This document shows, piece by piece, positions 10,835-48,570 of a stretch of 50,750 nucleotides of DNA. The stretch is from positions 1-50,750 of the forward strand of contig JAKQNO010000039.1 in the NCBI GenBank assembly GCA_029565735.1. Reading direction: 5' to 3'. Origin of the DNA: a bacterium. GTDB taxonomy: Bacteria > Oederibacteriota > PGYV01. The position numbers were made by a program, and so were the translations under genes. Within the stretch, counting starts at the first letter, position 1, and the number at the start of each line of letters is the position of its first letter. Under the pieces are notes generated by a model. That model was not told the DNA's origin. It was given only the letters and a program-made list of their open reading frames with translations, and ran no database searches.

Positions 10835-13800
10835 TTATTTTTTATAATACTCCTGCAGCGGCATCACTTCCACCTCTTTTTTGCTTACCGATTCTATGGC
10901 GTAAACAAGCGCCTGCGCCCCCGACATTGTCGTGGTATAAGGCACGCCCAGGCTTATGGCGTGAAGCCTAATCTGGTAATCATCGCTTCTTGGCCCTTTG
11001 CCCGCCGGAGTATTGATGATAAGGTTTATCTTTCCCGCCTTTATCATATCAATTACGTTTCCGCCCTTTTCATGGACCTTTTTCACTTTTATTGTCTCTA
11101 TGCCAAACTGCTCCAGAGCGTTTGCCGTTCCAAGCGTGGCCGCGATTTTAAATCCAAGGTCAACAAGTTTCTTCGCGACAAAGACAATATCGCGCTTGTC
11201 TTTATTCTTCACAGAAATAAAGACCGTTCCTTTTGAAGGAATCTTCTGTCCGGCGGCAACCTGCGATTTATAATAAGCATGCCCAAAATCCTTATCCAGC
11301 CCCATAACCTCGCCTGTTGATTTCATTTCCGGCCCAAGAACAGTATCAGCACCGATAAACTTGGAGAACGGAAACACGGATTCTTTTACGGATACGTGCT
11401 GCAGGTCAAGTTTTTCCTTTACCTTAAGCTGCTTTAACGTCTTTCCTGTCATAATTTTAGTCGCAAGTTTTGCCCATGCCACGCCGGTTGCCTTGCTTAC
11501 AAAAGGCACCGTCCTTGACGCGCGCGGATTTGCTTCAAGGATATAGACAATGTCATTTCTTATCGCGTACTGCACGTTCATAAGACCTTTTACGTTAAGT
11601 TTTAAAGCCAGCGCTTTTGTGTACTGCTTAATCTTCTCCAGCATATCTCCCCTGATAGTGATGGGCGGCAGAACGCAGGCGGAATCGCCGGAGTGTATTC
11701 CGGCCTCTTCTATGTGCTCCATAATGCCCGCGATTAAGGCCTCTTTTCCATCGCAGATGCAGTCAACGTCAACTTCCACCGCGTCTTCAAGGAATTTGTC
11801 GATTAATATCGGATATTTCTCGGAAACAATAAAGGCCTCTTTGGCGTATTTATCAAAGGACTCTTCATCATAAACAATTTCCATAGCGCGGCCGCCAAGC
11901 ACATAAGAAGGCCTTACAAGCACGGGATAACCCATTTCCCTTACTATCTTTTTTGCCTCCGCAAGGTTAAACGCCGTGCCGTTTTCCGGCCTTGGGATGT
12001 CAAGTTCTGTCAGCACCGCGTCAAACTTTTTTCTGTCTTCAGCCCTGTCTATGGATTCAGGCGAAGTGCCCATTATTTTAACGTCAGCTTCTTTAAGCGG
12101 AACCGCAAGTTTTAAAGGGGTCTGCCCGCCAAACTGCACGATAAACCCGGTTTTCTTCCCTTCATCTTCGGATATCGCAAGAATGTCTTCAACCGTCAGC
12201 GGTTCAAAATACAGTTTGTCAGCCGTGTCATAGTCGGTTGATACGGTTTCGGGGTTGCAGTTGACCATTGAAACTTCGTAGCCTTCCTCTTTAAGGGCGA
12301 ATACCCCGTGCACACAGCAGTAGTCAAACTCTATTCCCTGGCCTATCCTGTTTGGGCCGCCGCCAAGAATAACCGCTTTTTTCTTTTTTGTGTTTATCGG
12401 ATTTTCATTCTGGCTGCCGTATGTGGAATACAGGTATGACGACTTTGCGTCATATTCGCCGGCGCACGTATCCGCGTGTTTATAAACCGGTTTTATGTCA
12501 AATTTTTTCCTTAACGCCCTTACCTTATCCTGCGTTGTGCCAAGCATCTGAGCCAGCTGGACATCGGAAAATCCTGATTCTTTGGCGCTTCTTAATTCAT
12601 CCGGGAACGCCGCGCTTTTAATTATGGATTTTTTGCTCATTTTATTTTCCTGCGCGATTAATTCATCCAGCTGCGCGATGAACCACGGGTCAATACCCGT
12701 CATTTCATTAATCTTCTTTATACCCATGCCTTTCTGCAGCGCGTACCTTATGTACCAGAGCCGCTGCGAATTCGGCAGTTTAAGTTTTTCCGCTATCTGT
12801 TTTTCGGAAAGCGAAGATAATAAAGGATCCTTGCCGTCGCCGCCAAAACCAAACCTTCCTGTTTCCAGCGAGCGCATTGCCTTCTGAAGCGATTCTTTGA
12901 ATGTCCTTCCCATTGCCATTACTTCGCCTATGGCCTTCATCTGAGGGCCAAGTATGTCGGGCGTATCCTTGAATTTTTCAAAGGTGAACCTTGCCACTTT
13001 GGTCACAACGTAATCCACGTCAGGTTCCGAAGAAGCGGGCGTCCTTTTGGTCATTGTGTTTAAAACTTCATCAAGCGTGTAGCCCACCGCAAGTTTTGTC
13101 GCCACCCTTGCTATCGGGAAACCCGTTGCCTTTGAAGCCAGCGCGGAAGAACGCGACACGCGCGGGTTAAGTTCAATTACCTTTAACTTTCCGTTTTTTG
13201 GATTCACGGCAAACTGAATGTTTACACCGCCGTTTACGCCAATTTCCCTCATGATATCTATACCCGCGTCCTTGATAAGCGCGCATTCCGCCGCGGTAAA
13301 TGTCTGCGCCGGCGCGGAGCATATTGAATCGCCGGTATGGACTCCCATGGGGTCAAAATTTTCTATGTTGCATATCTGAATGACGTTGTCTTCGTGGTCG
13401 CGCATAAGCTCCAGTTCGTACTCTTTCCATCCAAGTACGGACTCTTCAAGAAGCACCCTTGAAATGGGCGAAGCCTTAAGCCCGTAATACGCCTTCTGTT
13501 TAAAATCCGACATACCATACGCTATGGAACCGCCTGCGCCGCCAAGGGTAAACGCCGGCCTGACTATTATCGGGAATTTTATTACTTTCGCCGCGGCCAG
13601 GGCTTCTTCCATTGTGCCCACGTACGCGCTTTCCGGAACTTCCAGCCCTATCTTCTGTATCGCGTTCTTAAACAAAAGCCTGTCTTCGGCTTTTTCTATG
13701 GCGTTATAATCCGCGCCTATAAGCTCCACGCCGTATTTTTTAAGGATGCCGCTTTTTGAAAGCTCCGAACCAAGGTTAAGCCCGCTTTGCCCGCCCATTG

Positions 13801-14065
13801 TGGGTATTAAAGCGTCCGGCCTTTCTTTTTTAATTATTTTTTCAACGAATTCCGCGTTCACCGGCTCTATGTATGTGCGGTCCGCGTATTCCGGGTCCGT
13901 CATAATTGTGGCGGGATTGGAATTCACAAGGACCGTCTTATACCCTTCTTCCCTTAAAGCCTTGCACGCCTGTGTACCTGAATAGTCAAATTCGCAGCCC
14001 TGCCCGATCGTTATGGGGCCGGAACCTATTATCATTATTTTTTTGATGTCTGTGCGTTTTGGCAT
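10835..14065 (-). CDS. carB: Carbamoyl-phosphate synthase large subunit, second copy
   Basis: 1076 residues, full length. It has two ATP-grasp halves: the first with [28 protein letters not shown] and [18 protein letters not shown], the second with [28 protein letters not shown] and [18 protein letters not shown]. The C-terminal MGS-like allosteric domain has [12 protein letters not shown]. The ATP-site motifs look intact, so bicarbonate phosphorylation and carbamate phosphorylation should work. It differs from carB1 in places (VNGGVNIQ for [18 protein letters not shown] for SITVAPAQT). It starts one base after the stop of carA2, whose glutaminase looks dead, so free ammonia is the likely nitrogen source. 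Assigned to the pyr operon by position. Confidence 0.93.
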
Positions 14066-14066
14066 C

Positions 14067-15251
14067 TTATTTCACCCCTTTTGCAGATTTCATATAATCA
14101 ATGAACTTGTTGAACACAAAAGGCGCGTCGTGTTTGCCCGGCCTTGCCTGCGGATAGTACTGGACGCCGAATGCCTTAAGTTTTTTTGAGTCAATACCTT
14201 CAATATCGCCGTCATTTAAATTAATAAGAAGGGGTTCAAAACCGCTATTTGATTTCTTGATTGATTCCGCGTTTATGGAAAAACCGTGGTACTGGGAAGC
14301 CACTTCCACGCCCTTTGTCCGCGTGTTTATTATTGAATGGTTGCCTCCCCTGTGGCCTGCTTTCATTCTGTCAATTTTTATCCCTGCCGCGGCGGCCATA
14401 AGCTGGCATCCAAGGCCCGTGCCTAAAACAGGCACTTTTCCCAGAAGCTGTTTTATTTCCGCCTGAATTTCTTTCATCTCACGCGGATCGCCGGGTCCGC
14501 CTGAAAGAAAAACGCCGTCAGCTTTTATTTCTTCCACGCGCCGCGCCTTTGTTGAAGCCGGCAGAACAATTACTTCGCATCCGGCTGACGCGAACATTTT
14601 AAGCGCGCTTTGCCTTATTCCAAAATCAAAAGCCGCGACCTTAAATTTGCGTTTATTGTCCGACACTTTAAGATAAACTGTTTCTTTGTCAAAAAGGTCA
14701 AGCCCTGTTATTTTTTTTCTGCTGTCCCATTTATATTCTTTATCTGTTGAAACCGGAGCTATTTTTATACCCGCGGCGGCGCGCGCTTTTTTAAGAAGCG
14801 ATGTTTTGTCAAAATCAACAGCGGAAATAACAGCGCCCATTTCGCCTTTTTTTATTATGTGCCTTACAATCGCGCGGACATCAAGCCCGTCAATTGACGT
14901 GATTTTATTTTTTATAAGCCAGCTTCTGAAATCGCCTTCCGCGCGCCAGTTGCTTGTATACCTGCTTATCTGCGCCGCGACAAAGCCCGCCGCGTGGACG
15001 GCTGATGATTCATAATCGCCCGAATTAATCCCTGTGTTGCCCTGTTCCGGCCACGTCATACAGATTATGTGGCCTTTTACCGCAGGATCCGTCAGCAGTT
15101 CCTGATATCCGCCGACAGATGTGTCAAAAGTAATAAATCCCGCGGCTTCCCCCGCGTATCCCGCGGATTTTCCCTTAAAAAAAGTCCCGTCTTCAAGCAT
15201 CAGTACAGCAGCGGCATCTGCGCCGCTTTTTTTACCGGCTTTCTTTTTCAT
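14067..15251 (-). CDS. carA: Carbamoyl-phosphate synthase small-subunit paralog lacking the glutaminase triad
   Basis: 394 residues, full length, with both the CPS small-subunit N-terminal domain ([15 protein letters not shown]) and a class I amidotransferase domain ([16 protein letters not shown]). The catalytic residues are gone. The nucleophile motif GICxGHQ reads GTGLGCQ at 277-283, putting Gly279 where Cys belongs. The His and Glu of QHHPEA read QYYPQA (Tyr366, Gln368). The glutamine-binding Asn of QNHGF is Tyr321. The frame is intact and the start has AAGGAG. It probably holds and gates carB2 without hydrolysing glutamine. The N-terminus adds a lysine-rich stretch. A pseudogene in decay is less likely given full length and tight spacing to carB2. 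Confidence 0.9.
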
Positions 15252-15261
15252 ATTGCTCTCC

Positions 15262-15536
15262 TTTAAGTATAGCGATTAAGTTTCTTAAGCATTTAAGCTA
15301 TAACGAAACCTTCAAACATAGCACTTTAGCAGTTTAAGCATTTAAGCTATAACGAAACATTAAGCATAAACAGCTTAAGCATTTAAGCTATAGCGAAACC
15401 TATCTTTAATCTATCGCTTATGCTTAATTGCCTATAGCTTAAATCTCTATGTTTTAACCTTTCGCTTCTGCTTAATTGCCTATAGCTTAATCCTCTATTT
15501 TTCCCGCTTATGCTTAACTGCCTATAGCTTAAATTG
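15262..15536. repeat. Array of TTAAGC-type repeats in two orientations
   Basis: Three copies containing TTAAGCATTTAAGC with a following CGAAAC in the left half (about 15286-15400) face three copies of CTTATGCTTAA or CTTCTGCTTAA with CCTATAGCTTAA in the right half (about 15412-15536). The region separates carB1 from carA2 and could fold into a large hairpin. Related single copies are at 28703-28730, 29756-29791 and 48680-48720. No gene or clear promoter is seen. Confidence 0.75.
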
Positions 15537-18500
15537 CTATTTTTTCCTGGCCTCTTTATAATATTCCTGAATTGATTTAACGGACATCCCTGTTTCGCCC
15601 GCCGCCTCTATCGCGGTCACAACCGCCTGCGCGCCCGCCATTGTGGTGGTGTAAGGTATTCCAAGCGCTATCGCCTGTGTCCTTATCATGTAATCATCGC
15701 TCCTTGGACCTTTGCCCACCGGAGTGTTGATGATAAGCTGAACTTTTCCGGCTTTCATGGTGTCCAGTATATTCGGCGAAGCTTCCGACACTTTTTTGAC
15801 GGTTTTCGCCGTTATTCCGTATTTTCTTAACACGTTAGCCGTGCCTTCGGTAGCAATAATATCAAAACCCATATCGCGCAGTTTCTTTACCACAAACACA
15901 ATATCGCGCTTGTTTTTGTTTTTTACGCTGACGAATACGGCGCCGCCTGACGGCAGTTTCTGCCCCGCCGCTATCTGCGCCTTGTAATACGCGTGGCCAA
16001 AATCACTGTCTATACCCATAACCTCGCCCGTTGATTTCATTTCGGGGCCAAGCACTATATCCGCCCCCTGGAATTTATTAAACGGAAGCACCGCTTCTTT
16101 TACCGCTATGTGCAGAAGGTCAAGGTTTTCTTTTACCTTAAGCTGCTTTATGGTCATACCTGCCATAATTTTTGTGGCTATCTTTGCCCAGGATATTCCC
16201 GTTGCCTTGCTTACAAACGGCACTGTCCTTGAAGCGCGCGGATTTACTTCCAGCACGTAAACATGGTCGTTGCGCAGCGCGTACTGGACGTTCATAAGCC
16301 CTTTTACGTTAAGTTCAAGCGCCATTTTATGCGTGTAATCCCTTATCACGGCAATGGCATCCTGCCTTATGCTTAAGGGCGGAAGCACGCACGCGGAATC
16401 GCCTGAGTGTATTCCGGCCTCTTCTATGTGCTCCATGATGCCGCAGATAACGGCTTCTTTTCCGTCGCACACGCAGTCCACGTCCACTTCAATAGCGTCT
16501 TCCAGAAACTTGTCAATTAAAACCGGATGCTTTTCGGAGACTATAAACGCCTCTTTAGCGTATTTTTCAAAACTGACATCGTCATACACAATTTCCATGC
16601 CGCGCCCGCCAAGCACGTAAGACGGCCTTACAAGCACGGGATATCCTATGCGTTTTACAATCTTCCACGCCTCTTCAAGCGAAAAAGCGGTGCCGTTTTC
16701 CGGCCTGCTTATGTTTAATTTTGTCAGGATTTTATCAAATTTTTCCCTGTCTTCCGCGACGTCAATTGACAGGGGTGATGTCCCCATTATTTTCACTTTC
16801 TGATTATAAAGCGGCATGGCAAGTTTTAAAGGCGTCTGTCCGCCAAACTGCGCTATAAAACCGGCTTTATCCCCTTCTTCATCCGCTATTGCCATCACGT
16901 CTTCCATTGTAAGCGGTTCAAAATAAAGTTTGTCTGACGTGTCGTAATCGGTGGAGACAGTTTCAGGATTGCAGTTGACCATTGATACTTCGTAGCCAAG
17001 TTCCTTAAGCGCGAACACCCCGTGGACGCAGCAGTAGTCAAACTCTATTCCCTGGCCTATCCTGTTGGGGCCGCCGCCAAGAATAATGCCTTTCTTTTTT
17101 TGCGACACAGGATTTTCATTTTCACTGTCATATGTGGAATAAAGGTATGGCGTATACGCCTTAAATTCAGACGCGCATGTATCCACCATTTTGTATACCG
17201 GCTTTATTCCAAGTTCCCTTCTCATTCCCCTGAATTCATCCTCTGTAACGCCGAAAATGTACGCAAGCTGGACGTCGGAAAAACCGTCCTTCTTTGCCTG
17301 AATCAGTTCGGCTTTTATCACTTCCGCTTTTTCCGGGGTAAGCCTTCCGGTTTTTACGCTAAGCGCGGTTAATGCTTTTTCTTCGTCGTAAATTTCCCTC
17401 ATGTAATGCAGAAACCACGGGTCTATCTTTGTTATTTCATTTATCTCTTTGTCTGTCATGCCTTTTTGCATTGCGTATTTCAGATAAAAAATCCTGAAAG
17501 AGCTTGGCACCACAATTTTTTCCCTTAACTCTTCCATTGATATTTTTGAAACGTCAATGTCTTTCCCGTCAGATCCAAAGCCATGCCTGCCGATTTCCAT
17601 TGAACGCAGCGCTTTCTGGAAAGATTCCTTAAAGGTTCTGCCTATGGCCATTGCTTCGCCCACGGATTTCATCTGCACGCCAAGTTCATCCTTTGATTCC
17701 TTGAATTTCTCAAATGTGAACCGTGGAATTTTTGTCACAACGTAATCAAGCGCCGGTTCAAAAGATGCCGGAGTATACCTGGTAATATCATTCGGGATTT
17801 CATCAAGTGTGTAGCCAACCGCAAGCTTTGCGGCTATTTTTGCTATGGGAAAACCTGTCGCTTTTGACGCAAGCGCGGAAGACCGCGAAACGCGCGGGTT
17901 CATTTCTATGACTATCATGCGGCCGTTTTCGGGATTTACCGCGAACTGAATATTGCTGCCGCCGGTATCCACGCCTATTTCCCTTATTATTTTAACCGCG
18001 GCGTCCCTCATAAACTGGTATTCACGGTCGGTTAAGGTCTGCGCAGGGGCCACGGTTATTGAATCGCCGGTGTGAACGCCCATGGGGTCAAGGTTTTCTA
18101 TGGAGCAGATAATTACCACATTATCTTTTAAGTCCCTCATCACTTCAAGTTCGTATTCTTTCCAGCCCAAAACAGATTCTTCCAGAAGCACGCCGTGCAC
18201 GGGCGAATCTTTCATTCCTTTGTCCGCTTTCACCTTAAACTCCGCGGCATTGTACGCTATACCGCCGCCTGTTCCGCCAAGGGTAAAAGCCGGCCTTATA
18301 ATTATGGGAAACTTTATTTCTTTGGCCGCCTTCATTGCCGCGGCCATTGTGGTGACGTAGCTGCTTTTAGGCACGTCCATGCCTATCTTTTTCATTGCCT
18401 GTTTGAACTCTTCCCTGTCTTCGGCTTTCTTAATTGACTTGGCGTTGGCGCCTATAAGCTCCACTTTATATTTTTTATCCAACCCCTTTTTTACAAACTC

Positions 18501-18800
18501 CATCGCCAGGTTCAGCGCGGTCTGGCCGCCGACCGTGGGCAGAATGGCATCGAGCTTTTCCTTAATGACTATCTTTTCCAGAATATCGACCGTCAATGGT
18601 TCGATATATGTGGCATCCGCGAATTCCGGGTCTGTCATAATTGTGGCCGGATTTGAATTTACGAGTACAACCCTGTACCCTTCTTCCTTTAAAGCCTTGC
18701 ACGCCTGTGTGCCGGAATAATCAAATTCGCAGCCCTGCCCTATTACAATAGGGCCCGATCCTATAAGAAGGACCGTCTTTAAATCTCTGCGTTTGGGCAT
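15537..18800 (-). CDS. carB: Carbamoyl-phosphate synthase large subunit, canonical copy
   Basis: 1087 residues. It makes carbamoyl phosphate from bicarbonate, ammonia and two ATP. Both ATP-grasp halves have the expected motifs ([46 protein letters not shown]; then [46 protein letters not shown]), and the C-terminal allosteric domain is complete. AGGAGT precedes the ATG, 30 bases after carA1. Its partner CarA1 has an intact glutaminase, so this pair should use glutamine as usual. It is followed by a long repeat array, then by the second carAB pair. Confidence 0.95.
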
Positions 18801-18830
18801 ACGTTTACTCCTGTCTGGTATATGTGACTT

Positions 18831-19997
18831 TTACTTTTTATTTGTTTTCTTTTTTGCCTGTATCATAAGGTCAATAAAATGGTTAAAAATATACCGCGCG
18901 TCGTGCGGTCCGGCTGACGCTTCCGGATGATGCTGAATGGAAAACGCCTTTAATTTTTTTACTTCAATGCCTTCAATTGTTTTGTCATTAAGGTTGATGT
19001 GCGTTACTTCAACTTTATGCTTTAATTTTTTAAGGGATTTTAAATCAACGGCAAAACCGTGGTTCTGGACCGTTATGTCTATCTTTTTTGTGCGCGTGTC
19101 CATTACCGGATGGTTGGCGCCCCTGTGGCCGAATTTAAGTTTATAGGTCTTTCCGCCCAATGCCTGCGCCAGAAGCTGGTGCCCGAAACATATTCCAAAA
19201 ATTGGTTTTTTACCCAGCAGTTTTTTTAGTTCTTCAACAATGTAAGGGACAGCCGAAGGGTCTCCGGGCCCGTTGGAAATAAAGATTCCGTCAGGATTTG
19301 TTTTTAATACATCTTCCGCTTTTGTGTCAATGGGGACAACGGTAACTTCACAGTTTAAATCCGTAAGTATCCTTAAGATATTATTTTTCATCCCGCAGTC
19401 AAAAGCCGTGACTTTAAGTTTTGTTTTGTTATTTCCCACCCTTACGTACCTGTCTTCATTTATCATCATGCCCACGGGTTTTAATTTCCCGCTCCATTTA
19501 TACGGCTTTTCAACAGTCACCTGTTTTGCAAGGTCAATCCCCACTATCGAAGGCGACTCTTTTACCTTTTTACGCAGAGAATCTTTGTTAAAATCAACCG
19601 TTGACAGCACGCTTTTCATAGCCCCAAAATCCCTTATGTGCCTTGTAAGCGCCCTTGTATCAATGCCCTCTATTGCCTGCTTGCCGTGTGCTTTTAAATA
19701 AGCGCCCAGCGTCATTCCGGCGCGCCAGTTGCTTTTTATTTTGCTCATCTCTTTAACCACAAACCCTTCGGCCTGCAGGCAGCGCGATTCCGCGTCGTCA
19801 TCCACAATGCCGTAATTGCCTATTTCCGGATAAGTCATTGTGACTATCTGCCCTTTATATGAAGGGTCTGTAAGAATTTCCTGGTAACCCGTCATTGAAG
19901 TGTTAAAAACTATCTCTCCGTATGCTTCGCCGTCGGCGCCGCACGACGAACCTTCAAAACATGTACCGTCTTCAAGCATCAAAACAGCTTTTTTCAT
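18831..19997 (-). CDS. carA: Carbamoyl-phosphate synthase small subunit, canonical glutaminase
   Basis: 388 residues from the chosen ATG at 19995-19997; a TTG two codons upstream is closer to the GGGAGA ribosome site than is usual. It releases ammonia from glutamine and channels it to CarB. The nucleophile Cys270 sits in FGICFGHQLL, and His357 and Glu359 in SIQHHPEASAGPHDA complete the triad. QNHGFAV supplies the glutamine-binding Asn. This intact copy is the direct in-window control for the degenerate copy at 14067-15251. It follows pyrC by 27 bases in the pyr operon. Confidence 0.95.
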   Translation of the reverse strand: MKKAVLMLEDGTCFEGSSCGADGEAYGEIVFNTSMTGYQEILTDPSYKGQIVTMTYPEIGNYGIVDDDAESRCLQAEGFVVKEMSKIKSNWRAGMTLGAYLKAHGKQAIEGIDTRALTRHIRDFGAMKSVLSTVDFNKDSLRKKVKESPSIVGIDLAKQVTVEKPYKWSGKLKPVGMMINEDRYVRVGNNKTKLKVTAFDCGMKNNILRILTDLNCEVTVVPIDTKAEDVLKTNPDGIFISNGPGDPSAVPYIVEELKKLLGKKPIFGICFGHQLLAQALGGKTYKLKFGHRGANHPVMDTRTKKIDITVQNHGFAVDLKSLKKLKHKVEVTHINLNDKTIEGIEVKKLKAFSIQHHPEASAGPHDARYIFNHFIDLMIQAKKKTNKK

Positions 19998-20024
19998 CTG
20001 CAATTCTCCCGGTTAAAAATCAGT

Positions 20025-26109: not shown

Positions 26110-28470
26110 CTATTTTCTGATTAGGGTTACTTTTTCTTCTCTTGAAAGGGCTTTTATTGCCTTTTCCCTTGCCATAGCACTGCCCACATCGTACCCTGTC
26201 TCCAGATGCACAAGTTTTACAGGACGGTGAACCTTTGTATATTGCGCGCCTTTGCCGCTGTTATGCGCCTTTAACCTGTGTTTTATATCCTTTGTGATTC
26301 CAGTATAAAGCGTGCCGTCCGCGCACTTAAGAATATATACGGACCATACAGCCGGCCTGCCTGAAACAGGCGGATTGATTCTTATTTTTTTTCTTAACAC
26401 CTGCGTGCACGGATTCATCTTTTCATACCCCGGCTGCGTACCGCCCGCCCAAAATACAAAATCACCATAAACCGCTTCTCTTTCCCCTTTTTGATTTATT
26501 GCCTGCAGCTGTCCCGGAGAAACCGTAAACTTAACGTTCTTTTTTTCCCCCGGCGCAAGCTGAATCTTTTCAAAACCTGCCAGCTGTCTTATTGGGGAAG
26601 TTTTACCCGCGCCGGGCAATGCTATATAAAGTTGTACAACTTCCGCCGCTTTTACCCTGCCGGTATTTTTCACCTTAACATTAATTATATGATTACCTGC
26701 TTTACGCTTCATTTTTAAATCAGAGTATTTGAACTTAGAATATGACAGCCCGTGGCCAAATGGATATAACGGCGTGCCTTTAAAATACCTGTAAGTCCTG
26801 CCTTTCATTTCATAACTTTCAAACGCGGGAAGCTGTTTTACATTTTTATAAACAGTGACAGGCAGTTTTCCCGAAGGGCTTACCGCCCCGAATACTATAT
26901 CCGCTATTGCAGTGCCGCCCGCCTGCCCGGGATACCACGCCTGCAAAACAGCATCCGCGGAGTCCGGTTTTAAAGAAAGCGCGCCGCCCGACAGCAATAT
27001 CACGATAACCGGTTTCCCGGTCTTTCTTAACCTCTTAATCAGCTCTTCCTGAACGCCTGGCAATCCCAAAGAAGCCCTTTCATATCCGTTTGTATCGCAC
27101 TCCTCGCCTTCTATTTTCGGGGACAATCCAAGGCACAGTATTATTACATCGGATTTTTCCGCGCATTTAACCGCTTGCGCAAAACCTTTTGTATCATTAC
27201 CTGTCAGCTCACACCCTTTTGCATAATTTACATTAATGCCTTTTATCTCTGAAAATCCTTTAAGCACAGTTTTAGGGGACGCCGGCGTGCCGCTGTAATT
27301 GCCAAGCAGCACAGATACATCATCAGCATTGGGGCCGATGACAGCCGCGGACTTTATCTTATTTTTATTAAGCGGAAGAACGCCGTCGTTTGACAGCAGC
27401 ACCACGGAATCCTGCGCGGCTTTTAATGCCAGAGCACGGTGTTTTTTGCAGTCAACTATATCCCCGGGAATGCCTGTAAACGGCGTGTGCTGCGTGCTGT
27501 CAAACATTCCCAGCTTAAACCTTGTAATCAAAAGCCGCTTTAAATTGCGGTTTATCCACTCTTCTTTTATCATTCCTTCGGCGTCAGCTTTTAATACGCC
27601 CTGCTTTGCATTTGTACATATTTCATTGCAGCAGTTTAAGTCGCACCCGTTTTCTATCGCCATTGAAACAGCCTGTTCAAGCGTGTCTGCCAGTTTATGA
27701 TATTTGTAGATATCATCAATAGCTTCGCAGTCAGACACCACGTACCCTTTAAACCCCCACTGCCCTCGCAGTATCCCGGACAGCAGAGTTTTACCGGCAC
27801 TGCAGGCCTCACCGTTTATCCGGTTGTAGGCAGACATTACCCCTTCCACGCGCGCCTCCTTTACAAGCGCTTCAAATGCGGGAAAATAGGTTTCATTTAA
27901 ATCTTTTAAAGACACAACGGCATTAAAACCATGCCTCATATTTTCCGGGCCGCTGTGCGCTGCAAAATGTTTGGCGCAGGCGGCTGTTTTAAGATATTTT
28001 TTATCATCACCCTGAAGCCCGCGGACAAACTGTATCCCCAGCTGCGCGGTTAAATAAGGGCATTCGCCGTAAGTTTCCTGCCCGCGCCCCCATCTTGGAT
28101 CGCGGAAAATATTTATGTTCGGCGACCAGAATGTAAGCCCAAAATACTGCCCGGTTCCATCTTCTGATAATGCTTCGTGATATTTCGCGCGCGCTTCTTC
28201 AGAGATAACACAAGCGGCCTCATGCATCTTTTTTTTATCAAACATGGCAGCCAGACCTATTGCCTGCGGAAATACAGTGGCAGTGCCGGCGCGCGCCACG
28301 CCGTGAAGGCATTCGTTCCACCAGTTGTATTTTTTTATCCCCAGCCTTGGCACAGCCGGAGATTCATGCAGAAGCTGTGACAGTTTTTCCGCGCGCGTCA
28401 TGCGCGATATTAAATCATCCGCGCGTTCTTCAAAAGAATAAGTATTATCAAGATATTTTTCAGCAGACAT
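26110..28470 (-). CDS. GH3 beta-glycosidase fused to a C-terminal GIY-YIG domain
   Basis: 786 residues. Residues 1-694 are a glycoside hydrolase family 3 enzyme of beta-xylosidase or beta-glucosidase type: FWSPNINIFRDPRWGRGQE, ACAKHFAAHSG, nucleophile Asp247 in YVVSDCEAID, a probable acid/base Glu in KIEGEECD, and a fibronectin III-like end near 590-690. No signal peptide is seen, so it acts in the cytoplasm. Residues about 706-786 form a GIY-YIG domain (WSVYILKCADGTLYTGITK) like the YhbQ/UPF0213 family. The junction falls at a run of eight A (plus strand 26385-26392). With one A fewer the GH3 part would end at once with TAA, so the fusion could be an assembly error. The GIY-YIG part has no start of its own. 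Confidence 0.82.
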   Translation of the reverse strand: MSAEKYLDNTYSFEERADDLISRMTRAEKLSQLLHESPAVPRLGIKKYNWWNECLHGVARAGTATVFPQAIGLAAMFDKKKMHEAACVISEEARAKYHEALSEDGTGQYFGLTFWSPNINIFRDPRWGRGQETYGECPYLTAQLGIQFVRGLQGDDKKYLKTAACAKHFAAHSGPENMRHGFNAVVSLKDLNETYFPAFEALVKEARVEGVMSAYNRINGEACSAGKTLLSGILRGQWGFKGYVVSDCEAIDDIYKYHKLADTLEQAVSMAIENGCDLNCCNEICTNAKQGVLKADAEGMIKEEWINRNLKRLLITRFKLGMFDSTQHTPFTGIPGDIVDCKKHRALALKAAQDSVVLLSNDGVLPLNKNKIKSAAVIGPNADDVSVLLGNYSGTPASPKTVLKGFSEIKGINVNYAKGCELTGNDTKGFAQAVKCAEKSDVIILCLGLSPKIEGEECDTNGYERASLGLPGVQEELIKRLRKTGKPVIVILLSGGALSLKPDSADAVLQAWYPGQAGGTAIADIVFGAVSPSGKLPVTVYKNVKQLPAFESYEMKGRTYRYFKGTPLYPFGHGLSYSKFKYSDLKMKRKAGNHIINVKVKNTGRVKAAEVVQLYIALPGAGKTSPIRQLAGFEKIQLAPGEKKNVKFTVSPGQLQAINQKGEREAVYGDFVFWAGGTQPGYEKMNPCTQVLRKKIRINPPVSGRPAVWSVYILKCADGTLYTGITKDIKHRLKAHNSGKGAQYTKVHRPVKLVHLETGYDVGSAMAREKAIKALSREEKVTLIRK
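26385..26392 (-). other. A8 tract at the GH3 / GIY-YIG junction
   Basis: On the minus strand AGA AAA AAA ATA continues the fusion frame; removing one A gives AGA AAA AAA TAA. A GCCTG/CAGGC mini-hairpin begins about 12 bases downstream. The tract could allow slippage or be a sequencing error. Confidence 0.6.
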
Positions 28471-41276: not shown

Positions 41277-41307
41277 AAAAAATAAGGAGGCCTTATTACG
41301 GCCTCCT
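41277..41307 (-). terminator. Terminator after the trehalose cluster
   Basis: On the minus strand AGGAGGCC pairs with GGCCTCCT (arms 41300-41307 and 41285-41292, loop of seven), followed by TATTTTTT. It stands between treT and der. Confidence 0.9.
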
Positions 41308-41346: not shown

Positions 41347-42558
41347 TTAAAAGAAGACAATATCTTCCTTATGATACAGGGAAAGAAACAGCAGCATATA
41401 CTCTTTTATGTGCCTTGTAAGCAGAAAATTATTCCTTACGTGTTCCCTTCCGTTTTTGCCAAGTTTGGCGGCATAATCGGGATTATTTAAAATCATTTTT
41501 AGGGCAAACGCGGCGCCGTCTATTGAATGGCACAGCATACCGGAATATTTATGCGTAATCTGAAGCGGAATGCCGCCCACGTTTGAAGCAACAACAGGCT
41601 TTGATTTCCACAGGGCTTCGCTTACGGTAAGACCGAACCCTTCTTTTAAGGATTTCTGCATTATAACGGTTGAAGCTCTCTGAATGGCATTAACCGCGCT
41701 GTCGTCCTGAGGCATATTAAGAATAATTATGTCTTTATCTTTTCCCGCGGCTTCCAGAACTTCGTTATAAACAATGTTTCCTTCCGGGTCATCAACCGCC
41801 GTCCCTCCTGCCAGCAGAAGCCTGCAGTCAACATAAGGTTTTACTTTTTTGTATGCCTGAATCACACCCACCGGATCTTTTAACCTGTCAAATCTTGAAA
41901 TCTGGGTGATCAGAGGCTTATCCACAGGTATGTTATATTTTTCAAGGTGCTTTTTTATTTCTTCAGGTTCCATGTCCCTGTTTTTTTCACTTAAAGGGTC
42001 AATGGACGGAGAAATTAAAAACTGCCTTATAGGGAGTTCGCGCGAAAAAAACGGCGAAGAAAAAACGGCGGCATCATATTTATCAATATAACCTCTTAAA
42101 AACTGCCATGTGAAAAAAACAGGATTACTGGCGTCAACATGACACCGCCATATCCACTTATTTTCTTTTTTTTTGTTAATAAGGGTAATCGGCTGCGGGT
42201 CATGAATAAACATTATATCCGAATCGCAGGCCATGTTCTGCTCATTATATAGCCCGTTTTCCAGAAAAATATCCATTTCTTTTTTATTAAGAGGCTCTCC
42301 GCTTCCGTGAATATTATTGTGTATTTTCTTTGTCACGTCAAAAAACGAATTATTGCCTTTTATTACCTGCCAGTCTGAAACCACCCCAAGTTCGTTAAGA
42401 AGCGGCACCATCCTTGTAAGTATCTCCGCCACGCCTCCGCCTACAGGAGTTGAATTAACATGGGTAATCTTTTTCCCTTTCAGTTTCTCTGCGGCTATTT
42501 TAAGGTCATCCAAAACAGCCTGCCCCACTATCCCTGCGTAATCATTTATATTTTTCAT
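41347..42558 (-). CDS. treT: Trehalose synthase TreT-like glycosyltransferase (GT4)
   Basis: 403 residues. HVNSTPVGGGVAEILTRMVP, DPQPI, RCHVDASNP, QISRFDRLKDP, RLLLAGGTAVDDPEG and KEGFGLTVSEALWKSKP match TreT, which joins a nucleoside-diphosphate glucose to glucose to give trehalose. The last Glu pattern (EGFGLxxxE) is the GT4 donor site. The start overlaps the stop of the DUF5752-like gene (ATGA). In the same operon OtsA and OtsB give a second route to trehalose. In some organisms TreT runs in the degrading direction, so the flow here is uncertain. Confidence 0.85.
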   Translation of the reverse strand: MKNINDYAGIVGQAVLDDLKIAAEKLKGKKITHVNSTPVGGGVAEILTRMVPLLNELGVVSDWQVIKGNNSFFDVTKKIHNNIHGSGEPLNKKEMDIFLENGLYNEQNMACDSDIMFIHDPQPITLINKKKENKWIWRCHVDASNPVFFTWQFLRGYIDKYDAAVFSSPFFSRELPIRQFLISPSIDPLSEKNRDMEPEEIKKHLEKYNIPVDKPLITQISRFDRLKDPVGVIQAYKKVKPYVDCRLLLAGGTAVDDPEGNIVYNEVLEAAGKDKDIIILNMPQDDSAVNAIQRASTVIMQKSLKEGFGLTVSEALWKSKPVVASNVGGIPLQITHKYSGMLCHSIDGAAFALKMILNNPDYAAKLGKNGREHVRNNFLLTRHIKEYMLLFLSLYHKEDIVFF

Positions 42559-43223
42559 AAAACACCGCCTTTTTTCAGGATATCAAAGATTGCCTTTCTT
42601 AACTGCCCTATTGTGTGCGTGTACGGGTCAAGCCGGTTTATCGCGTCGGCCGGCTTATCAAGCCCCATGGAATTTCTGAACCACAGCGAAAAATCATTTT
42701 CCTGTTTATCAAGCCTTAACCGCGCTTCAAACATATGAAAATAAAGGGAGTCTGATGTTATTTTCTGAAGGCAATCCGCGAATTCAGATGGAGTATATGC
42801 CACATAACCGGTCGGGAAAATGAAACTTACTGTTTTCACAAAATTAAACTCCATGCCGGGCATGGCAGCCCTTATATTCCTGTTTTTAGAGGATTCTATA
42901 TACTTACTGATAACATTTGAAAGTTCTTCCCTTAACGCCCTTATGCTTTTAAAACTTACGGTATCAATGCTTGCAAGGGCTTCTGCAAGGCGATTCTCTC
43001 CAAGTGCATCGCCGACCCAATATGCAAAGTCATTTGCCGGTTCCGGATTTAAATATTCATGTTGTTGAAGAAACCTGTGCGTATGATGATATATTGAAGA
43101 ACCGTCAATACTTTTAATACATTTCAACAGTTCTTCAACATTTCCGGCTGATACTCCGGTCAGCTCTGAAAGATGCATTCTTGTGTAAAATCTGAAAGAT
43201 TTATCCGTGTAATTTTCTTCCAT
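42555..43223 (-). CDS. DUF5752-family protein (function unknown)
   Basis: 222 residues. SFRFYTRMHLSELTGVSAGNVEELLKC, SIYHHTHRFLQQHEYL, NDFAYWVGDALGENRLAEALASID and FHMFEARLRLDKQENDFSLWF resemble the DUF5752 family, which I recall as a helical family often next to trehalose synthase genes. The protein has many His, Phe and Trp residues but no recognised catalytic motif. It lies between otsB and treT and overlaps the treT start, so it is probably coupled to trehalose metabolism as an accessory or regulatory protein. The family call is from memory only. Confidence 0.55.
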   Translation of the reverse strand: MEENYTDKSFRFYTRMHLSELTGVSAGNVEELLKCIKSIDGSSIYHHTHRFLQQHEYLNPEPANDFAYWVGDALGENRLAEALASIDTVSFKSIRALREELSNVISKYIESSKNRNIRAAMPGMEFNFVKTVSFIFPTGYVAYTPSEFADCLQKITSDSLYFHMFEARLRLDKQENDFSLWFRNSMGLDKPADAINRLDPYTHTIGQLRKAIFDILKKGGVL

Positions 43224-43224
43224 T

Positions 43225-44010
43225 TCAGCCCTCCTTCATCAAGTCCATCATAATTTCTAACAATAGCACAAGTTCCTGCGGGCTTTTTAAAAGCATATCG
43301 GCGGCTGTGACCGTTTTTCTGCCGATAAACACCTTAACCGTTTTTTTCCCAAGTTCTTTAAACGCTTCTATATCGGTTGTGTCATCGCCGGCAAAAAAAA
43401 CACCCTGTTCAGGAATCTGTTCTTTTTCAGCTATCAGGCGTATTGCCTGCGCTTTTCCTGTGAATATTGCGGGCAATATCTCAAATACTTTATTGCCTTT
43501 TCTGATCCTTATCATGGAATTTCCCGCATCCGCAAAATTCCTGAACCACCTTTCAACTTTTAACCTGTCCGGGGCAGATACATTCCTGTAATGAAAAGCC
43601 GTCACATATCCTTTATTTTCCTTAATGAACCCCGGTATTTTTTTCAGCGCTCCCCATACAAGAAACGAAGCGCATTTAACGCTTTTCTTATATGCTTCAT
43701 CAAGTCTAAATCTGTAACTTATGCCTCTCCCCTGAATTTCCGCGCCATGATTTCCGCAATAAATTATATTTTTAACTTTAAAACGTTTCTTTAAATCATA
43801 TATTCTTCTTCCGCTGATAACACAAACCATACAGCCTTTTAACGCAGCAAGCCGCTCCACGCTTTTTTCCGCGTTTTTAACAGGCTGCGCTTTATCCGGA
43901 TTTTTTACAATATCTGACAGGGTCCCGTCAAAATCAAAACAAAACAACATTCTGCCGCAGCGCATCCTTTTTAAAATTCTTTGCGCGCGCGGAATTAGTG
44001 AATTATTCAC
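43225..44010 (-). CDS. otsB: Trehalose-6-phosphate phosphatase
   Basis: 261 residues, HAD type. FDFDGTLSDIVKNPDKA holds the nucleophile Asp and the second Asp, ISGRRIYDL motif II, NHGAEIQGRG the cap segment and FAGDDTTDIEAF the metal-binding motif. It removes the phosphate made by the upstream OtsA. The GTG start overlaps the otsA stop (GTGA). A lysine-rich central region is present. Confidence 0.9.
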   Translation of the reverse strand: MNNSLIPRAQRILKRMRCGRMLFCFDFDGTLSDIVKNPDKAQPVKNAEKSVERLAALKGCMVCVISGRRIYDLKKRFKVKNIIYCGNHGAEIQGRGISYRFRLDEAYKKSVKCASFLVWGALKKIPGFIKENKGYVTAFHYRNVSAPDRLKVERWFRNFADAGNSMIRIRKGNKVFEILPAIFTGKAQAIRLIAEKEQIPEQGVFFAGDDTTDIEAFKELGKKTVKVFIGRKTVTAADMLLKSPQELVLLLEIMMDLMKEG

Positions 44011-46289
44011 TGATTTTTACCTGTTATTAAGGCAATTTCATCAATGATGGAACCTGCCCATTTATATACATTCCCCTCACCGACCACTTCCCTCATCGAT
44101 TCCATGCGCCTCTTTCTTTCATCTATATCCATTTCAAGGCCGCTGTAAATGGCATCCGCAAACTCCTCTGCAGAATACGGATTTATTATAAGCGCCTCTT
44201 CAAGTTCCCTTGACGCGCCGGCAAAACTGCTTAATATAAGAACTCCGTCATTATCTTTCTTTGCGGACACAAATTCTTTGGCTACAAGGTTCATTCCGTC
44301 GTGAAGAGAACTGACAATACATAAATCCGCCATTGTATAAAAAGGCAGTATCTCACTGTACGACAGGTGTTTTTTGATATAGATAAAAGGTTTCCAGTTT
44401 TCCGTACCGTAAGCAAGATTGATTTTATCCACCTCAGCGTCTATTTCATTTATAAGTTCGTTATACTTTTTTATATTTGTCCTGCTTGGCGCGCCTATCT
44501 GTATAAATGTAAACCTGCCTTTCTGCTCCGGATACTTCTCAAAAAACCTGTTTAATGCGGTTATTCTTTCCACAATGCCCTTTGTATAATCAATCCTGTC
44601 GACTCCCACGCCTGTTTTAATGCCTTCAAGCCCGTATGCCGGACAAAGCTTTTCTTTGGCATAAACGGCCGCTGCTTCAACTTCCGTGTGTGTGTACCCT
44701 CCAACGCTTATAGGGAAAGGCCTTATAAATGTCTCATGGCCATTCATGACAACGCTGAATTTCTCCGTGTCAATGCGGTTTTCAAGCAGCCTGTTTGCAG
44801 TATCAAGAAAATTGTTGCAGTGAAACTGCGTGTGAAATCCCACAATATCACAGGCAAGCATTCCCTTCAGTATTTCTTTATAATACGGGCAGATGGAAAA
44901 TATTTCGGGGTTCGGCCATGGAATATGCCAAAAAAGCACCACTACAGCGTCAGGCCTTTGCTCCTTAATCATATGCGGCAACAGCGTAAAATGATAATCC
45001 TGGATAAACACAACAGGGCTTCCACCGGGCAGTTCTTCAAGCACGGCATCTGCGAACTTCCGGTTTGCTTTAATATACATCTCCCAGTCTTCGCGCCTGA
45101 AAACCGGCCTTGTATGGGTTACATGGCAGAGAGGCCACAGCCCTTCATTTGAAAAACCGTAATAATAACCGTCCTCTTCTTCCTTTGTAAGCCATACTCT
45201 TTTTAGAATGTACCTCTCATTATCAGGAGGCACTCCAAGTTTGTCCCTTGAATTTACAAATTCCCGGTCCTTATCGCCGGAACCATGCGCTATCCATGTT
45301 CCGCCGCTTGCCCGCATCACAGGATCAAGCGCGGTAACAACACCGCCTACCGGAACAATACATTTTACTTTACCGGTTATGTTATCAGTAACATGCATAT
45401 AAGGTTCCCTGTTAGAAACGACAAAAAAAGCGTTATCCCCTATTTTCGCTTTGACAAGATCTTTTAACCGCCTGTCATTCCACGCCTCGGTCTTTTTTGT
45501 CCTTATGGATGCTTCTTCATTTGCGGCTTTTTTTGCTATCCTCAGGCTTAAAGCCACCTGTTCAACTTCATTGATAAGTTTTTCAAATTCATCCCCTGAT
45601 TTGACCTGCGTGCTGTAATTTATTTCGCCTGACTGGAATTTTTTAAACCATTCCGTAAGCTTAATAAGCGGCATAATAAACAAAGTACGCGAAAGAAGAA
45701 GAATAACTATAATCAGAAGAAGCGCAAGAAGGCTCATATAAAGAGCCATTAAACGCCACATTTCACCGGATAACTTATCAATATATGAAGCGTCGTGGGC
45801 AATTACAACGGCTCCCAGAACATACTTATTATTATCAATCACGGGAACCGCATAAGAATAAATACCGCCTGCGGCGGTCTCTAAAACAGAATCGGAAGAT
45901 TTTTTCACCTTTGCAGCTTTTACCGCTTCCTGTTTTAGAACAGCTTCAAGTTCTTTAATACTTGAAGATATTATTACCTTTTTCCCTGCGGTTTCATAAA
46001 TAAGAGCGCCCTGTATACGTTCCCTCTTCTCGAAAGAACCTGCAAATTTTTTCAGTTGAGTATAATTTTTGGTTTTGAGGGATGTCAATACCATGCTTTC
46101 AGAAGATTCAGCCAAAGCCTTTACTTTTCTGGCTAGTTCATCCATCATTCTTAAGCGTTCAGCCCTGTCCCTGAAATATGTAATGCCGGCAAAACCGGCC
46201 AGAATTATTATTAATACAGGCAAAATTAGCAGAAAGAATCTTTTCATTTTTACCGCCGTTTCCGCGGGAAATACACTCTGATTTTCCAC
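44007..46289 (-). CDS. otsA: Trehalose-6-phosphate synthase fused to a membrane sensor-like region with HAMP
   Basis: 760 residues. TM1 at about 18-39, an external Cache-like segment at 40-178, TM2 at 180-205, a HAMP domain at about 200-252 and a GT20 domain from 285. GT20 motifs are complete: VSNREPYMHV, GGVVTALDPVM, FIQDYHFTLLPHMI, FWHIPWPNPEIF, DIVGFHT, GVDRIDYTKGIVERI and SLHDGMNLVAKEF. It makes trehalose 6-phosphate from a nucleotide glucose and glucose 6-phosphate. The GTG first codon lacks a good ribosome site; the ATG at 46245-46247 (MKRFFLLILP) is equally possible. The sensor end suggests direct control by an outside signal, possibly osmotic. A related glucosyl product cannot be excluded. 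Confidence 0.85.
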   Translation of the reverse strand: MENQSVFPAETAVKMKRFFLLILPVLIIILAGFAGITYFRDRAERLRMMDELARKVKALAESSESMVLTSLKTKNYTQLKKFAGSFEKRERIQGALIYETAGKKVIISSSIKELEAVLKQEAVKAAKVKKSSDSVLETAAGGIYSYAVPVIDNNKYVLGAVVIAHDASYIDKLSGEMWRLMALYMSLLALLLIIVILLLSRTLFIMPLIKLTEWFKKFQSGEINYSTQVKSGDEFEKLINEVEQVALSLRIAKKAANEEASIRTKKTEAWNDRRLKDLVKAKIGDNAFFVVSNREPYMHVTDNITGKVKCIVPVGGVVTALDPVMRASGGTWIAHGSGDKDREFVNSRDKLGVPPDNERYILKRVWLTKEEEDGYYYGFSNEGLWPLCHVTHTRPVFRREDWEMYIKANRKFADAVLEELPGGSPVVFIQDYHFTLLPHMIKEQRPDAVVVLFWHIPWPNPEIFSICPYYKEILKGMLACDIVGFHTQFHCNNFLDTANRLLENRIDTEKFSVVMNGHETFIRPFPISVGGYTHTEVEAAAVYAKEKLCPAYGLEGIKTGVGVDRIDYTKGIVERITALNRFFEKYPEQKGRFTFIQIGAPSRTNIKKYNELINEIDAEVDKINLAYGTENWKPFIYIKKHLSYSEILPFYTMADLCIVSSLHDGMNLVAKEFVSAKKDNDGVLILSSFAGASRELEEALIINPYSAEEFADAIYSGLEMDIDERKRRMESMREVVGEGNVYKWAGSIIDEIALITGKNQ

Positions 46290-46365: not shown

Positions 46366-46394
46366 ATTATATATAAGTTTACCTTCACATTCAA
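46366..46394 (-). promoter_or_regulatory. Promoter of the trehalose operon
   Basis: On the minus strand TTGAAT (46389-46394) and TATAAT (46366-46371) are 17 bases apart. Confidence 0.75.
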
Positions 46395-46405: not shown

Positions 46406-47665
46406 TTATTCAATATTTTTATCCCCCGGCGGTTCCGGCGGCGCGCCGGAGAAACGCCGGAAAAAAGCCGATACAAATTTATAAAAAGCCTTTTTCCGCT
46501 CAACCGAGTATGACAAAAAAGAATTAACCAGTATGGAAAAGAGTATAACAGCAAAAACCGTATCCCTTATAATTTCGCCCCCTTCCATCCCCGCCTGCGC
46601 CGGCATTCCTGCAAGAACAGCGGATGCAAGCCCCCTTGAAACCATAACTCCGGCGGCTGTTATATCAAACCGGCTCTCTTCTTTATTAAATGACATATTT
46701 GCGGATATAACCCTTGCCGCCAGTATAACCGCCGTAAGGACCGCAGAAAAGATAACGGTGTCAAAACCTGCCGGTTTCATTGATATCCCTATATAAAGGA
46801 AAAAAAACGTACGCATAAGAAACACAACTTCCGCCATAAAACTTTTTTCCGTGCCATTCAGAGTCACATTAAGATGTTTGACAGGCCCTATATTTATATC
46901 CTTTACGTTTCCAAGCACTATTCCAAAACAAAGCGCGGCAATTGCCCCTGAAAAACCGGCAAGTTCCGCTCCGCCAAACACTATAAAAACAAAAGCAGGC
47001 GTCGTAAAAGCGCTGTTTTCCAGAAGCCTCACCTTATTTAACATCATTGACCAGAAAAGCGCGGCGGCAGAACCCGCAGCTGCAGCCGCAGCAATAGCCA
47101 GTAAAGTCCTTCCGGTAATATACGCGGGATTAAAACCGGCGCCTTCGGAAGCCGGTATTATCTGAAGCACAAAAATTATTGAAAGGACTTCGCTTATTGT
47201 GGTTTCAAATACAACGGCGGATATTATGTTGCGGCTAACGCTCATTTTTCTAAGCATCGGTATTACAATTGAAGGCGCCGCCCCGGCAAGGATGCCGCCG
47301 AACACAGCCGCCTGCAGCAGGCCCAGCCCCAAAAAGACATGTGACAGCGCAGCCACAAAAACAAGCGTAAAAATAAACGTCAACAGCGCAAAAACAGCGC
47401 CCCTTCCGGCGGAGGATTTAACCGCGGATATATCAAGGCATAATCCCGCCTCAAAAAGAATTACAACAAGGGTAAGCGTGCTGAAAATTTCACCGAACCT
47501 GCCGAATATTTCGGGATTTATAAAGTTTAATACAGGGCCTGCAATTATGCCGGTTAATACAAGAGGAAGCACATCAGGAATCTTTGTCCGGTTAAAAGTC
47601 GCGGCAAAAAAGTGAGCAAAAAAAACTATTAGGCCTATAAACAGAACAGCGGCTGAAAATTCCAT
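46406..47665 (-). CDS. Na+/H+ (cation:proton) antiporter, CPA family
   Basis: 419 residues with about 11-12 membrane helices. VVILFEAGLCLDI is the GLxLD-type motif of CPA1/NhaP-like exchangers, and GGILAGAAPSIVIPML matches the ion-binding helices. A GGREIIRDTVFAVILFSILVNSF-type end closes the transport core. It should exchange Na+ or K+ for H+. The gene has its own start upstream of the trehalose promoter, and the short gap allows partial read-through. The pairing with trehalose genes suggests salt adaptation. Confidence 0.85.
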   Translation of the reverse strand: MEFSAAVLFIGLIVFFAHFFAATFNRTKIPDVLPLVLTGIIAGPVLNFINPEIFGRFGEIFSTLTLVVILFEAGLCLDISAVKSSAGRGAVFALLTFIFTLVFVAALSHVFLGLGLLQAAVFGGILAGAAPSIVIPMLRKMSVSRNIISAVVFETTISEVLSIIFVLQIIPASEGAGFNPAYITGRTLLAIAAAAAAGSAAALFWSMMLNKVRLLENSAFTTPAFVFIVFGGAELAGFSGAIAALCFGIVLGNVKDINIGPVKHLNVTLNGTEKSFMAEVVFLMRTFFFLYIGISMKPAGFDTVIFSAVLTAVILAARVISANMSFNKEESRFDITAAGVMVSRGLASAVLAGMPAQAGMEGGEIIRDTVFAVILFSILVNSFLSYSVERKKAFYKFVSAFFRRFSGAPPEPPGDKNIE

Positions 47666-47761: not shown

Positions 47762-48127
47762 TCAGTTTACAGGAAATTTTTTATTGTTTTCAAGGGATTC
47801 TATATGACGCTGATTCTTTTCATCGGTATTTATGAAAGAAAGGCCCGCTTCATAACTTTCGCCTGACTTGCAGCACCACATTACTTCACATATGGCGTTT
47901 ATTGCGGATGAAGAACCTTCGGGAATTACATCAAGCAGAAGGACGTCCCCTTTTTCAACAGGCGCCGGCAAAAGCATGCAGATTCCGCCCCTGCTTATAT
48001 TTTTTGCCTTCGCGCACCTGTATCCGATATCAATGGAACTTATATATTCCCCAAGTTTTTTATACGAGGCAGTGGCATTACATTCATATCTTTCGTGTGA
48101 CCTGACTTCCCTGCGCTGCAAAGACAT
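47762..48127 (-). CDS. PilZ domain protein 1
   Basis: 121 residues. The c-di-GMP binding pattern RxxxR is RSHER near the N-terminus, and NxSxxG is KNISRGGICM. The rest (PVEKGDVLLLDVIPEG, AICEVMWCCKSGESYEAGLSF) is the PilZ beta-barrel. AGGAGG precedes the ATG. It is a paralog of the next gene upstream and lies 21 bases from it. Its target process is unknown. Confidence 0.85.
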   Translation of the reverse strand: MSLQRREVRSHERYECNATASYKKLGEYISSIDIGYRCAKAKNISRGGICMLLPAPVEKGDVLLLDVIPEGSSSAINAICEVMWCCKSGESYEAGLSFINTDEKNQRHIESLENNKKFPVN

Positions 48128-48148
48128 TAAAGCCTCCTGAATTGGATG

Positions 48149-48517
48149 CTAATGAATATTTGTATTTCCGGCTATGTATTCCCTTATATTTTCCATATCT
48201 TTCTCTTCAAGGCTTAAAAATTTCAGTCCCGCTTCAAATTCAGATCCGGTTTTTGCGCACCATTTAACTTCGCAAAACGCGTTTATTGGCTTTTCCGCAG
48301 TGTCAAGTTCCAGCCCGACTTTTACTATATATCCTTTTGCTATTTTTCGCGGCGCGCTGATGCATAAGCCGCCTTTTGATATGTTCTTGGTTGTGGTTTT
48401 TAAATATCCTGTCCCTGACAGGTCAATGGGATCGCCCAGCACTTTATATATGGCATGCGCTTCGGCGTTTATTCTTGTGAACTCTCTTTTATTCTGGGGC
48501 ATATCAACCATTTGCAT
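48149..48517 (-). CDS. PilZ domain protein 2
   Basis: 122 residues from the ATG at 48515-48517; GGAGG is very close to it, so the ATG at 48509-48511 is nearly as likely. The longer frame has a hydrophobic N-terminus that is probably not translated. RxxxR is REFTR and NxSxxG is KNISKGGLCI. FCEVKWCAKTGSEFEAGLKFL is shared with PilZ protein 1, so the pair arose by duplication. Confidence 0.8.
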   Translation of the reverse strand: MQMVDMPQNKREFTRINAEAHAIYKVLGDPIDLSGTGYLKTTTKNISKGGLCISAPRKIAKGYIVKVGLELDTAEKPINAFCEVKWCAKTGSEFEAGLKFLSLEEKDMENIREYIAGNTNIH

Positions 48518-48570
48518 TACCCTCCTGAGAAGTTTTACTAATAATAGCAGAATATTATTAAAAGTCAATA

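Follow-up and report, generated by a model that had tools for sequence, protein, structure and literature searches.

A GT20 synthase joined to a predicted Cache-HAMP membrane sensor: a candidate receptor-enzyme for the control of trehalose synthesis

HAMP receptors usually act on kinases, cyclases, phosphatases or the chemotaxis machinery, and in class III adenylate cyclases, diguanylate cyclases and PP2C phosphatases the HAMP domain is placed between a membrane sensor and the catalytic output. The OtsA proteins with solved structures are soluble. In the window analysed here, a stretch of bacterial DNA of 50,750 nucleotides, one gene encodes a protein with the same GT20 fold as OtsA (E. coli; Mycobacterium thermoresistibile, 5jij), with a TM-score of ~0.9 by target and with the same catalytic residues. 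It differs from OtsA in having ~270 extra N-terminal residues, which are predicted to form a TM-Cache-TM-HAMP module.

The open reading frame occupies positions 44007-46289 of the minus strand and encodes 760 aa from the GTG at 46289. The translation, however, probably starts not there but at the ATG at 46247 (Table 1), which is preferred because the N-termini of the homologs begin with MKRxLLL at the equivalent position of the alignment. The hydropathy profile contains two strong hydrophobic segments (residues 18-36 and 180-198 in the 760-aa frame) separated by ~130 residues, and the domains follow each other in the order TM1, periplasmic single Cache (PDC), TM2, HAMP, helical linker and full GT20, the linker carrying Trp256 and Leu261 that are invariant across the family alignment. 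This is essentially the order proposed in the initial annotation (a membrane segment, an external Cache-like part, a second membrane segment, HAMP and a complete GT20 domain), and it is borne out by Pfam, by the family profiles and by the AF2 model together with Foldseek.

Table 1. Features of the fusion gene, its operon and the adjacent sequences in the window
Feature	Position	Strand	Basis and remarks
HAMP-GT20 fusion gene	44007..46247	-	746 aa, preferred ATG; homolog alignment
TM1 region, residues 1-28	46164..46247	-	hydropathy peak; start of AF2 helix 2-58
Periplasmic single-Cache/PDC sensor, residues 29-160	45768..46163	-	WalK Cache profile match; AF2 fold; Foldseek WalK, CitA, KinD; sCache_3_2 and dCache in family members
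TM2, residues 161-186	45690..45767	-	hydropathy peak; AF2 helix 154-205
HAMP, residues 187-238	45534..45689	-	Pro193 ... Gly207-Glu ... Asp-Glu-Phe motif; Pfam; Tsr profile match; subclade identity
Helical linker, residues 239-272	45432..45533	-	family alignment; AF2 helices 221-254 and 258-269
GT20 catalytic domain, residues 273-738	44034..45431	-	Pfam; OtsA catalytic residues conserved; Foldseek to trehalose-6-phosphate synthases
OtsB trehalose-6-phosphate phosphatase	43225..44010	-	overlaps fusion gene by 4 bases; TIGR00685 127.8 bits vs cut-off 68; Pfam E 2e-29
DUF5752 protein	42555..43223	-	PF19027 E 1e-64; operon position conserved
TreT-like trehalose synthase (GT4)	41347..42558	-	PF21269 E 3e-50; NF041139 below its cut-off
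Terminator-like hairpin and T-run closing the operon ahead of der	41285..41307	-	consensus match only
Promoter-like site TTGAAT-17-TATAAT upstream of fusion gene	46366..46394	-	consensus match only
Cation:proton antiporter	46406..47665	-	Na_H_Exchanger E 9.8e-32; 158 bases upstream of ATG, same strand

In the single window sequence the Pfam HAMP model reaches 14.7 bits (E 0.04) with the full protein and 17.0 bits (E 0.0075) with its N-terminal fragment, in both cases below the cut-off of 25, and sCache_3_2 (E 0.046) is also below the Pfam cut-off, so the earlier claim of a Cache-like sensor with HAMP needed a stronger test. A family profile built from 17 homologous N-termini and run against a PDB set matched Tsr (methyl-accepting chemotaxis protein I) in its TM2-HAMP stretch (E 0.0012) and WalK in its extracellular Cache (E 0.0014), and individual family members taken alone reach E-values of 1.4e-5 for HAMP, 2.8e-6 for sCache_3_2 and 2.8e-8 for dCache_3 in Pfam. 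The AF2 model (pLDDT 80.6) contains a long first helix, a PDC-like mixed sheet and a TM2 helix that runs into AS1, followed by the connector and AS2. The long N-terminal helix and then the mixed sheet, situated between two TMs, are the features of a single Cache/PDC domain. The initial annotation would have been contradicted by a predicted structure having no HAMP fold; the model instead shows a helix-connector-helix arrangement beside TM2 (helices 154-205 and 221-254), with P193 in AS1 and the Asp-Glu of the DEF motif opening AS2, the confidence being low across the connector and the linker and lowest in the connector. The best Foldseek match of the model is a WalK model (261 columns, TM 0.71, E 1.3e-9), and the Cache domains of WalK, KinD and CitA come next. 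The predicted Cache and HAMP identities are confirmed by these family profiles, by the AF2 model with Foldseek and by the selection acting on the N-terminal part (see below). A search of the same genome for other such sensors yielded three further matches, which cover only approximately the TM2-HAMP half of the module.

The search of GT20 sequences for linked HAMP domains that the initial annotation had suggested revealed a family of such proteins. A broad survey of 384 genomes gave a GT20 match in 121 and the fused form in 17, belonging to 16 families; many other long GT20 proteins (710-805 aa) were TPS-TPP-like with long C-terminal extensions, and these were excluded from the fused class. 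Two further phyla also have the fused form, the one in 7 of 10 genomes and the other in at least 24 of 297, and one relative is a MAG labelled Candidatus Omnitrophota. In the tree of 69 GT20 domains all 19 fused proteins that it included, originating from several phyla, were placed in one GT20 clade with support of 100/99, the Aminobacter plasmid protein included. Since these 19 members come from many genomes and make up one clade, a chance fusion or an assembly artefact is excluded. The protein encoded by the Aminobacter aminovorans plasmid pAA02 (L064, 3791-5608) has a GT20 domain of the fused clade and one TM, with no sensor or HAMP; it may be considered a natural sensor-loss variant, of use as a control. 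The tblastn search of plasmids detected no full-length fused homolog. The nearest relatives outside the fused clade are soluble GT20 proteins, some of which retain a helix ahead of the catalytic domain. GT20 was absent from the two other genomes of the window's own genus that were examined, and the fusion gene is therefore accessory at the genus level.

Among the eight nearest relatives, the identity to the window protein is 62-66% in GT20, which is the most conserved part, 52-65% in HAMP, 25-34% in the sensor and 15-38% in TM2. A HAMP domain nearly as conserved as the enzyme, next to a diverged sensor, is what a coupling between the two would predict for HAMP and GT20, and it fits a receptor with a changing input and a retained HAMP-enzyme coupling. 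In two closely related pairs the dN/dS ratio of the N-terminal part is ~0.12 and ~0.08, indicating purifying selection. The main rival explanation is that the N-terminal part serves only to hold the synthase at the membrane and to dimerise it, for instance near transporters or OtsB, while Cache and HAMP no longer signal. It owes this position to the Aminobacter homolog, in which the TM anchor is present without the sensor, and to a second subclade of distant members (L046, L049, L055), in which HAMP is eroded to 10-19% identity with the loss of the proline. A plain anchor, however, would need neither the strongly conserved HAMP of the window's own subclade nor a Cache fold maintained by purifying selection, and we consider simple anchoring a serious but less probable alternative. 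One may also suppose that the N-terminal part is untranslated and that a start further downstream yields a plain soluble synthase, as soluble relatives beginning near the linker do exist. The full frame and its start are nevertheless kept in many species with an N-terminal dN/dS of ~0.1; this excludes, for practical purposes, a downstream start, including one beyond residue 250 which the initial annotation had recognised as fatal to its reading.

The GT20 half matches nearly the whole PF00982 model (E 8e-120, 401 bits vs the cut-off of 32.5), and Foldseek groups it with trehalose-6-phosphate synthases. Since the NCBIfam OtsA equivalog TIGR02400 does not reach its cut-off (421.9 bits vs 564.85), we infer the formation of trehalose-6-phosphate from the family relationships rather than from an equivalog assignment. 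This score, along with the window motif FWHIPWPNPE found where OtsA has FLHIPFPTPE, would also agree with a receptor of the proposed kind whose product is another glucoside phosphate, such as glucosylglycerol-phosphate. We find this improbable, given that the OtsA model scores well above that of glucosylglycerol-phosphate synthase (307.5), that the OtsA catalytic residues are conserved, and that the adjoining OtsB exceeds the trehalose-phosphatase cut-off, with an OtsB homolog adjoining most of the fused loci. Some plant class II TPS proteins are pure sensors or regulators with a dead GT20. A similar fate of the enzyme in our family is very improbable, because the donor and acceptor positions of OtsA that were checked by alignment to the E. 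coli protein are intact in the window protein and in 19/19 fused proteins, no part of the protein is better conserved than GT20, and none of our observations speaks for a dead enzyme.

The fusion gene is the first of a four-gene operon, HAMP-GT20, OtsB, DUF5752 and TreT. The same arrangement is found again within the taxonomic order of the window as well as in other phyla, with the genes of one phylum following each other as GT20-DUF5752-TreT-OtsB. The initial annotation had pointed to the cation:proton antiporter next to the gene. The antiporter is real, but it is only one of several recurring neighbours, which also include MscS channels and other ion transporters, and the true operon partners of the fusion gene are OtsB, DUF5752 and TreT. 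An MscS gene near the fused one is confirmed by Pfam at three loci (L031, L070, L073) and detected by phmmer at five more (L130, L132, L134, L135, L138). A Na+/H+ exchanger adjoins the fused gene or lies close to it in the window, L082 and L075; a Na+/Ca2+ exchanger does so in L068, L075 and L139, and L082 also has a TrkA gene. In a rough count over 12 genomes, which are related and were treated as independent, these adjacencies exceeded chance, MscS being found near the operon 3 times vs 0.06 expected, and Na/H exchangers 3 times vs 0.09 expected.

The pair of DUF5752 and TreT-like genes (41347-43223 in the window, minus strand) is conserved in its own right (L066-L070, L072, L074, L075, L082, L083, L129, L139, L140), and in L083 it adjoins a soluble GT20. 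DUF5752 may be a partner of TreT; no relevant paper on this domain was found in the open-access literature. L077 and L133-L137 share a homologous gene of ~580 aa that resembles GH15 by eye; it lies upstream of the fused synthase, either directly or two to three genes away. Upstream of the antiporter in the window two neighbouring single-domain PilZ proteins are encoded (47762-48568, minus strand), possibly a c-di-GMP binding pair. Further away on the same strand, one ORF (26110-28470) combines a complete GH3 beta-glucosidase, an Fn3-like part and a C-terminal GIY-YIG nuclease domain (E 6e-16), possibly a gene fusion, and two complete carbamoyl-phosphate synthase small/large subunit pairs adjoin each other next to pyrimidine genes (10835-20003).

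We propose, with a probability of about 0.6, that the fusion protein is a one-protein receptor-enzyme, i.e. a membrane-anchored trehalose-6-phosphate synthase under Cache-HAMP control. The periplasmic Cache would sense a cue, most likely one linked with osmotic or ionic stress. The change would then travel through TM2, HAMP and the helical linker to GT20 within a dimer and so set the synthase activity, and the product would be dephosphorylated to trehalose by the OtsB encoded in the neighbouring gene. The sequence analysis shows the domain order, the predicted fold, the conservation with its selection on the N-terminal part, the intact catalytic residues and the gene context, whereas we infer the dimeric signalling with its geometry, the allosteric control and the kind of ligand. 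The view that the protein is a sensor whose output is an enzyme, put forward in the initial annotation, is supported by the structure prediction, the family profiles, the HAMP conservation, the single fused clade and the osmotic or ionic neighbours. The occurrence of the same fusion in distantly related bacteria beside osmotic-stress genes suggests that the cells may switch trehalose production by an outside signal. More tentatively, such proteins could represent widespread direct-output osmoreceptors, in which a Cache-HAMP receptor has a compatible-solute synthase as its output and outside conditions set the trehalose level with no two-component relay or transcription. If this regulation is true, the family would offer a simple and testable case of transmembrane allostery acting on a glycosyltransferase, and a means of fast osmotic control of trehalose.

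All the constituent domain families are known, but in the open-access papers searched we found no account of the fusion as a class of its own with a wide distribution; a search of these papers for HAMP joined to OtsA, trehalose synthase or GT20 returned nothing relevant. The closest GT20 relatives of the fused proteins are the soluble sisters L020, L021, L023, L025, L026 and L028, several of which have a helical segment before the domain, yet they are devoid of TM, Cache and HAMP; the soluble GT20 of L083 even has DUF5752, TreT and OtsB as neighbours, as in the fusion operon. With the Cache-HAMP sensor histidine kinases such as WalK/YycG the fusion protein shares the TM-Cache-TM-HAMP front half, but its output is a glycosyltransferase, with no kinase domain and no phosphorelay. 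The HAMP-linked cyclases and phosphatases deliver second messengers or act on phosphorylation, whereas the output here would be an enzyme of stress metabolism that synthesises a compatible solute; the fusion occurs in many bacterial families, and mechanosensitive channels and ion antiporters are repeatedly encoded beside it.
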